This document shows positions 5,052 through 7,272 of a stretch of DNA of 11,111 bases, piece by piece. Made by a program: the position numbers and the translations under genes. The notes beneath the pieces are model-generated. The model saw nothing but the letters and a program-made list of their open reading frames with translations, ran no database searches and had not been told where the DNA came from. The DNA comes from Candidatus Poribacteria bacterium. Lineage in GTDB: Bacteria; Poribacteria; DTPJ01; WJIO01. The stretch lies in NCBI GenBank assembly GCA_014730235.1, contig WJIO01000064.1:1-11111 (forward strand), in the 5' to 3' direction. How positions within the stretch are numbered: position 1 is the first letter of the stretch; every line of letters begins with the position of its first letter.

Positions 5052-5079
5052 TTGTTAAAATATCGTTAAATGATATTTA
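5052..5079 (+). promoter_or_regulatory. Possible promoter with overlapping palindrome before the 5121 gene
   Basis: TTGTTA (5052-5057) and TATTTA (5074-5079) are separated by 16 bp, a fair sigma-70-like pair about 40 bp before the start codon. A perfect inverted repeat AAATATC-N7-GATATTT (5058-5078) fills the space between the two boxes, where a repressor operator would be expected. Promoter and operator are both inferred from sequence only. Confidence 0.4.
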
Positions 5080-5104
5080 TATCAGTGGTTATAGTTGTTA
5101 TGAT

Positions 5105-5110
5105 AGGAGG
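5105..5110 (+). promoter_or_regulatory. Ribosome binding site deciding the 5121 start
   Basis: AGGAGG ends 10 bases before the ATG at 5121. The upstream in-frame ATG at 5070 has no Shine-Dalgarno-like sequence before it, so 5121 is preferred. Confidence 0.75.
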
Positions 5111-5120
5111 GTTAAATCCT

Positions 5121-6095
5121 ATGGAATATAATTACGTTCCTGATCTTGAATCTGCCGGTTTTACTATTCTTGAATCTGCCAGTTTCAGCTTCTGGATTCC
5201 CGATTCTCTTGGTGAAGATGAAACTGTTCGAGGGGTAATAGCCATCAGTGATTTCATTATAAATCGCTATCTGTTTTTTGATCCCCGTTGGAGAGAACTG
5301 GCGGAAAAACTGAAATTTGGTCTGCTTTTACAACAAGTGACTGAACCCCGGCACACTTTTAAATTATCCAGGGGAGAAGAAGGTCTAAAGGCTATATTTC
5401 ATGCAATGGAATATTTTTCCGAAGTGTCCGGTCATCCTGAAGTTAAGTATTCGGGTCTGATACACATAGGGCCTTCAGAAGCCGCTTTTCAGGCCCCTCA
5501 ATTCGCTTTTCTTAATCCCCAGCGCACTATAGCTGTAATAGCCGTTCACGGTTCACCAGTTACCAAACATATAGAGGTGCTGGACGGTCCTTTGGGTTTA
5601 GTTCCCAGACTTCAGGTTATGTGCGAAACAGACAGATATACGCCTTCATATAGAATTTACCATTTCTTACTGGAAGGACGAAAATACGGCGCCCTGTGGA
5701 CAAGCCTTTATCAGGGTAAAGTGCCGCACGACAGGATAGGTCAGCCGGATTTTATGATAAAATGGATCGAAGATGTAGTAAAACTCAGAGTACCGGAAAA
5801 CATACCCAGGGATAAACTACCGGAATTCAAGGCGATTTCCGATAAGGACGGTTATTTGGGTTATCTCCAGCTAAAAAGTGATGGAACCCTCGAGACCAGC
5901 GAAGATAAGCTTTTCTATGCCCCATATTCAGAATACCAGGGTGATAAATCAAAGGCCTGTTGGATTCCCAGCGAAGAGCTTGCCCGTCTGTGGCATGAAT
6001 ATAACCTTCGGGAAGATGCCTTTGACCATGTTCTGGAAGAAATTATGGGAGAACATCAGGCAGCAGAGGCGGCGGCAGCCCAAGCTCAAGCCTGA
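5121..6095 (+). CDS. Alpha/beta-hydrolase-like protein with degenerate nucleophile elbow
   Basis: A 324-residue protein. The order of elements resembles the PHB-depolymerase/dienelactone-hydrolase branch of the alpha/beta-hydrolase fold: strand RGVIAIS (about 37-43), FFDPRWRELAEKLKFGLLLQQ (52-72), a helix with GLKAIFHAMEYFSEVSGHPEVKYSGLIHIG (88-117), then PQRTIAVIAVHG. The expected elbow G-H-S-x-G reads G-P-S-E-A here (Ser119). The Ser is kept but the flanking small residues are changed, so activity is doubtful. The C-terminus is Ala/Gln-rich (AAEAAAAQAQA). Starting at 5070 instead would add a hydrophobic segment (MIFISVVIVVMIGGLNP) that looks like an export signal or anchor, but that start lacks a ribosome site. 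It is the first gene of the rightward cluster and ends 14 bp before the ABM-like array. Substrate unknown; fold assignment is moderate. Confidence 0.75.
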   Translation: MEYNYVPDLESAGFTILESASFSFWIPDSLGEDETVRGVIAISDFIINRYLFFDPRWRELAEKLKFGLLLQQVTEPRHTFKLSRGEEGLKAIFHAMEYFSEVSGHPEVKYSGLIHIGPSEAAFQAPQFAFLNPQRTIAVIAVHGSPVTKHIEVLDGPLGLVPRLQVMCETDRYTPSYRIYHFLLEGRKYGALWTSLYQGKVPHDRIGQPDFMIKWIEDVVKLRVPENIPRDKLPEFKAISDKDGYLGYLQLKSDGTLETSEDKLFYAPYSEYQGDKSKACWIPSEELARLWHEYNLREDAFDHVLEEIMGEHQAAEAAAAQAQA

Positions 6096-6109
6096 AAAGA
6101 GGTATAATA

Positions 6110-6466
6110 ATGTATATTAGCTTTGCTCATTTTAGTCTTAAACCCGGTGTAAGTGAGGAAGACATAATAAAGCTTTTTAACGAGTCAGCCATTCCAATAC
6201 ACCGCAGCCTTCCCGAATATATATCCTATGACCTTATGAGATACCTTCCCAATGGTACAGAAACTACCAGATGAGAATACTCCATTATGGAAGTATGGGA
6301 AAGGGAGGATTACCGAAGGCAAGCAAGACAGGAAAATAAGATAGGTCAAAGAGAAAGCGAATTACAAAAAACAGGGTTCTATGCGAAGTTTATAGAAATG
6401 CGGGAAAATTACTATCAATATAGATATTCTATAGAAGATGAAAGTAACCTATTTTTAACAGGTTAG
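6110..6466 (+). pseudogene. ABM-like protein, copy 1, with in-frame TGA at a conserved Trp
   Basis: The frame encodes 118 codons, exactly the length of copies 2 and 3, ending at TAG (6464-6466), with matching residues throughout: KLFNESAIPI, MEVWE, TGFYAKF, and a final DESNLFLTG. The only defect is TGA at codon 55 (6272-6274), where copies 2 and 3 have Trp in V/I-R-W. A single G-to-A change explains it. TGA is the normal stop of several neighbouring genes, so termination is expected, leaving a 54-residue peptide that lacks the second half of the fold. A restart at Met60 (6287) is possible but has no clear ribosome site. A stable-looking hairpin sits immediately after the TGA (6277-6296), so readthrough is a minority alternative. 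A sequencing or assembly error is also possible. The gene starts 14 bp after the hydrolase-like gene, with AGAGG upstream. Confidence 0.8.
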
Positions 6467-6502: not shown

Positions 6503-6859
6503 ATGTATATAAGCTTTTCCCAGTTCAGCTTAAAGCCGGATTACAGCGAAGAAGATGTAATGAAACTATTCAACGAATCGGCTATCCCAATTTTTCGCAC
6601 CATTCCCGGATGCGTTTCCTATGATCTTCTTAAATACCTGCCCGACGATACTGGTACTGTTCGTTGGGAATATGCCGTTATGCAGGTATGGGAAAGCGAA
6701 GAATACCGAAAAAAAGCGGTGGATGAGAAGAAAATAGGTATGGCTGATAGCGAATTGCAGAGAACAGGTTTTTATGATAAATTCAGAGATATGGCAGAAA
6801 ATTACTATATTTATAATTTCTCAATAAGTGATGACAGTAATCCATTTATGGGTGATTAA
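6503..6859 (+). CDS. ABM-like small protein, copy 2
   Basis: A 118-residue protein resembling the antibiotic-biosynthesis-monooxygenase (ABM) superfamily, which folds as a ferredoxin-like domain and dimerises into an alpha/beta barrel. The pattern is strand MYISFSQFSLKP, helix SEEDVMKLFNESAIPIFRTIPG, strand CVSYDLLKY, strand RWEYAVMQVWES, then helix EEYRKKAV. This order and the PGC.S.....W....VWES pattern are typical of the superfamily. The C-terminal 40 residues (FYDKFRDMAENYYIYNFSI) are an extension seen in all three copies. No secretion signal. ABM-fold proteins include monooxygenases, haem-degrading enzymes and non-enzymatic sensors, and I cannot say which applies. AAGGAGG lies 5-6 bases before the ATG. 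The gene is 36 bp after copy 1. Confidence 0.8.
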   Translation: MYISFSQFSLKPDYSEEDVMKLFNESAIPIFRTIPGCVSYDLLKYLPDDTGTVRWEYAVMQVWESEEYRKKAVDEKKIGMADSELQRTGFYDKFRDMAENYYIYNFSISDDSNPFMGD

Positions 6860-6915: not shown

Positions 6916-7272
6916 ATGTTTGTTATTTTTTTCCAATTCAGTCCGAAGCCCGGTTACAGCGATAAAGACGTGATGAAACTATATAACGAATCAGCAATTT
7001 CCATGTATCGTAGTTGTCCCGGTTGTATTTCCTTTGAACTTATGAAATATATTCCCGATGGCACAGGAACTATTCGTTGGGATTATGCGACAATGGAAGT
7101 CTGGGAAAGTGAAGAACACCGAAAAAAAGCGGAAGAAGAAAAGAAGATAGGCATTCAAGACAGCGAATTGGCAGATACGGGGTTTTATACAAAATTTGGG
7201 GAAATGATGGATAAATGGTACGGATATTCCTATAATGCCGGGGATGATACCAATCTATTTACAAAGGGTTGA
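6916..7272 (+). CDS. ABM-like small protein, copy 3
   Basis: A 118-residue paralogue of the 6503 gene with the same pattern: MFVIFFQFSPKPG, DKDVMKLYNESAISMYRSCPGC, SFELMKY, IRWDYATMEVWESEEHRKKAEEEKKIG, DSELADTGFYTKFGEMMDKWYGYS, DDTNLFTKG. The W and VWES positions are conserved. An ABM-like fold is inferred; enzyme activity is not shown. Starts lie at regular intervals (393 bp from copy 1 to 2, 413 bp from copy 2 to 3), consistent with tandem duplication. The ribosome site is GGGGGA, poorer than the AGGAGG of copy 2, so expression may differ. It is followed after 61 bp by the propeller gene. Confidence 0.8.
   Translation: MFVIFFQFSPKPGYSDKDVMKLYNESAISMYRSCPGCISFELMKYIPDGTGTIRWDYATMEVWESEEHRKKAEEEKKIGIQDSELADTGFYTKFGEMMDKWYGYSYNAGDDTNLFTKG

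Follow-up and report, generated by a model that had tools for sequence, protein, structure and literature searches.

Three tandem ABM-like frames were found on the forward strand of the window, that is, the whole 11,111-nucleotide stretch of Candidatus Poribacteria DNA that was analyzed (Table 1). Translation of the first frame, copy 1, yielded 118 codons followed by a TAG stop, with TGA at codon 55 as the single internal stop and no other stop or frameshift along its length. The other two copies aligned to it without gaps across all 118 codons and carried TGG at codon 55, as a sequence-only reading of this DNA had stated. Because copy 1, when read through, was 62% identical to copy 2, and because both of its halves scored as coding (0.44 and 0.34 per codon, against medians of 0.44 for true frames and −0.18 for wrong frames), the frame is far from chance. 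Shine-Dalgarno-like sequences were read directly 5' of all three copies. The gene preceding the array matched no Pfam or NCBIfam family, and a search with positions 5115–6092 as the query revealed no relative among 94 genomes.

Table 1. Coordinates of the tandem ABM-like copies, the flanking gene, and the sites discussed in copy 1.
Feature	Position	Strand	Evidence
Upstream gene, up to 341 aa, ends in TGA	5070..6095	+	ORF; Pfam and NCBIfam searches; relative search
AAGAGG, Shine-Dalgarno-like, 5' of copy 1	6097..6102	+	Read directly
Copy 1: ABM-like 118-codon frame, TGA at codon 55, probable recent pseudogene	6110..6466	+	Translation; read-through identity to copy 2; coding signal before and after the stop
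Codons 36–37 of copy 1: Glu-Tyr, Gly-Cys in other aligned relatives (PGC to PEY)	6215..6220	+	Alignment
In-frame TGA, TGG (Trp) in paralogs	6272..6274	+	Translation and paralog alignment
Codon 65 of copy 1: Arg; Ser in paralogs, Ser or Asn in wider relatives (WES to WER)	6302..6304	+	Alignment
Copy 2: intact ABM-like gene, 118 aa, TGG at 6665–6667	6503..6859	+	Pfam PF03992, 24.2 bits (cut-off 23.1)
Copy 3: intact ABM-like gene, 118 aa, TGG at 7078–7080, ends in TGA	6916..7272	+	Pfam PF03992, 26.2 bits (cut-off 23.1)

By their sequences, the intact copies 2 and 3 are assigned to the ABM superfamily of dimeric alpha/beta-barrel proteins with scores just above the curated cut-off, and any enzymatic activity here is only putative. 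Copy 1 differs from this superfamily in stopping before strand beta3, and its first half alone scored 13.6 bits, below the Pfam cut-off of 23.1. When copy 2 was modeled with AlphaFold (mean pLDDT 76.5), the predicted structure resembled PDB entries for dimeric alpha/beta-barrel proteins, ABM-type ones among them, and placed the stop between beta2 and beta3, just before beta3 (residues 57–63). The TGA takes away more than 20% of the copy 1 frame, and the remaining 54-residue fragment is predicted to contain only beta1-alpha1-beta2 and would lack half of the fold. We considered whether this truncated product, or a protein started internally at 6287, might function as a short protein in its own right. 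The ATG at 6287 does open a 59-codon frame to the normal end, but it is not preceded by a Shine-Dalgarno-like sequence, and each part would amount to half of an ABM fold, with a first half that is below the family cut-off; a functional short form is therefore very improbable.

To place the stop among intact homologs, we compared the copies with their relatives. TGG was also read at this position in a fourth paralog, which lies on a separate contig (G000:C68, L004 1501–1842) and shares 41% identity with copy 2 over 101 residues, so that the stop is absent from three paralogs, all with TGG. In the wider relatives of the phylum the residue was Ala, Ser, or Val, the nearest genome among the relatives searched belonging to another family of the same order. 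The Trp, described earlier as conserved, is thus conserved within the four-copy subfamily only. Searches of genome and viral contig collections with the intact copies gave no confirmed relative.

The earlier description of copy 1 as otherwise intact holds for the frame, and less well for the protein, which apart from the stop appears not quite pristine in the alignment. The Gly and Cys replaced in copy 1 (G36E and C37Y) were invariant in all other aligned sequences, and its WER at codon 65 faced WES or WEN in relatives; conserved residues have thus been lost both before and after the stop. Where copy 2 shares its residue with the fourth paralog, copy 1 departed in 11 of 40 columns; the count was 9 of 41 for copy 3, and 4–5 of 33–37 for copy 2 in like comparisons. 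These missense losses may reflect decay, or a functional divergence older than the stop, since copy 3 too departs from conserved residues. The comparison of dN/dS before and after codon 55, which had been proposed as a check, was run with a four-taxon codon model. The omega of the copy 1 branch was 0.18 (0.13 overall), with no significant relaxation; it was 0.09 before the stop and 0.46 after it, neither value being significantly different from the rest. The test has little power because third positions, only 44–48% identical between copies, are saturated.

The lack of frameshifts had been thought unusual for a pseudogene. We examined this with a two-phase codon model, in which purifying selection is followed by neutral drift, assuming 0.1 indels per substitution. 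The modeled chance that 117 codons remain without a second stop or an indel was 0.83 at 0.3% neutral nucleotide divergence, 0.58 at 1%, 0.33 at 2%, and 0.16 at 3.3%. At up to about 1–2% neutral divergence, so short a gene would thus often have gained neither a further stop nor a frameshift, and the clean frame is not odd. Once the stop was counted, a short neutral phase was favored over none, with a broad optimum. Nonsense mutations are common in bacteria, and in Salmonella 346 of 378 curated pseudogenes have one lesion only, 131 of these being premature stops (PMC2916853). Copy 1 resembles the single-lesion nonsense pseudogenes of Kuo and Ochman 2010 (PMC2916853) in having one premature stop, an otherwise intact frame, and little divergence beyond that of functional copies; it differs in that theirs were called by synteny among close strains, whereas copy 1 was judged without a close relative. 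For a gene with redundant copies, a single TGG-to-TGA transition is nothing unusual. Copy 1 is therefore probably a recently inactivated tandem duplicate, a recent nonsense pseudogene, and among the three explanations offered previously (a very recent nonsense change, an assembly error, and read-through) the first is best supported.

The main rival to a pseudogene is an assembly error or a strain polymorphism, under which all or most of the population would carry TGG, and the consensus base at 6274 would be either erroneous or that of a minor allele. The genome consists of 451 contigs with 91.6% completeness and 4.8% contamination, and the contig is therefore probably metagenome-derived, representing one assembly; the two alleles would differ by one third-position G/A only. 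Against this, the TGA site lies outside any homopolymer, copy 1 departs from family-conserved residues elsewhere too, and bacterial nonsense mutations are common (PMC2916853). We regard this explanation as unlikely, though less so than any form of recoding or a shorter product.

UGA is read through at a low basal rate in bacteria. Since the stop stands in for Trp and the frame downstream of it is intact and coding-like, we asked whether Trp is inserted at this UGA often enough to be of use, so that some of the copy 1 protein is full-length. Features discussed for UGA-to-Trp read-through are a 4-bp anticodon stem, A9C, and G24A in tRNA-Trp(CCA) (PMC13092985). Copy 1 resembles that system in having TGA at a Trp codon, and a tRNA-Trp(CCA) was the only tRNA-Trp found here. 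A 4-bp-stem form was looked for and was not found; the tRNA-Trp present differs in having the full, paired 5-bp anticodon stem (CUGGU/ACCAG), with A at position 9 and G at position 24 in our own numbering, and thus neither A9C nor G24A. No tRNA-Trp(UCA) was detected among the tRNAs examined, which were part of 40 matches. Release factor RF2 is present (541 bits), and copy 1 has lost conserved residues, both of which argue against read-through.

TGA also functions as a normal stop, as had been asserted for the neighboring genes: it ends the upstream gene (6093–6095) and copy 3 (7270–7272), and it terminates 106 of 506 long ORFs in the approximately 1.0 Mb of the 5.5-Mb genome that was sampled. 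A screen of this sample for same-frame coding signal across a stop returned 37 candidates (18 TAA, 11 TAG, and 8 TGA). By our reading, most of the candidates printed were neighboring genes with their own start, and the only TGA candidates that resembled one gene split by a stop were copy 1 and three selenoprotein-like genes; no other conserved Trp position encoded by TGA stood out in the sample. The screen also contained two same-frame ORFs meeting at a TGA that is followed three codons later by an ATG (L093 2604–4217, minus strand; G000:C22), which when read through gave only weak Pfam matches. Read-through at a useful level is improbable, finding no support in an ordinary tRNA-Trp, in the presence of RF2, or in a stop lacking a SECIS, and still less probable is that the UGA is kept and read as Trp at a low useful level to provide a dose-limited third subunit.

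Selenocysteine was a possibility missing from the sequence-only reading, and genes for tRNA-Sec (79 bits) and SelB (367 bits) are present in the genome, together with three good Sec-TGA candidates. We searched for SECIS-like elements, defined as a hairpin with a loop G located 16–37 nt after the UGA; a published SECIS model calls for −7.5 kcal/mol or lower (PMC13188914). The best hairpins of the three candidates ranged from −6.9 to −9.7 kcal/mol. By contrast, the best loop-G hairpin after the copy 1 TGA reached −2.7 kcal/mol, a value attained by 36% of ordinary TGG codons, with a fold z-score of −0.5, and this residue is Trp, Ala, Ser, or Val in the aligned relatives and never Cys. Lacking both a SECIS-like hairpin and a Cys in relatives, the copy 1 TGA was rejected as a selenocysteine codon against these in-genome positive controls, and such decoding is scarcely credible. 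A short hairpin directly after the TGA (AUACUCCA-UUA-UGGAAGUAU) was also dropped; its loop is without G, its z-score was −0.4 to −1.1, and a similar hairpin occurs in copy 2, where there is no TGA.

With tRNA-Sec and SelB this genome can decode UGA as selenocysteine, and the in-frame TGAs of the three candidate genes look real. Two of these genes encode CBM_4_9-type proteins, each interrupted in frame by a TGA that falls within a GGUGCD motif and is followed by a SECIS-like hairpin (L129 8199–8861, minus strand, G000:C339; L124 566–1273, minus strand, G000:C248). Among 31 loci read at the GGUGCD position, Cys was aligned there in 18, TGA in 3, and T, Q, G, or K in 10, the last mostly in gapped alignments beside a Cys pair. 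The three TGA loci were the two copies of this genome and one in an order-mate (G001:C18), in which the hairpin following the TGA shows a matching base-pair change, that is, covariation. The CBM_4_9-type GGUGCD proteins are a possible selenoprotein family; a search of the review PMC13188914 for CBM, PF02018, and carbohydrate returned nothing. The third candidate (L080 940–2253, plus strand; G000:C17) is a thioredoxin-like and TPR protein whose WUGC motif contains the in-frame TGA; it scored 151 bits against NCBIfam NF041054 (WAxxUGC), below its cut-off of 300.

Returning to the recent nonsense pseudogene, we propose the following history. The saturated third positions show that an ancestral ABM-like gene was duplicated long ago, and the conserved first and second codon positions show that copy 1 was under purifying selection for most of its history. 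A single G-to-A transition would then have converted the Trp codon TGG to TGA. Ribosomes would terminate there with RF2 and release the 54-residue fragment, which, judging from the model, would not make a dimeric barrel; its role is presumably filled by copies 2 and 3. The stop would be too young for a second stop or a frameshift to be expected.

A recently broken tandem duplicate matters little in itself, and a stop at a conserved Trp in a clean frame is what is expected of short young pseudogenes and no sign of recoding. Testing the copy 1 TGA revealed probable recoding of UGA as selenocysteine in other, candidate genes of the same genome, and these genes are a more interesting result than the copy 1 stop.
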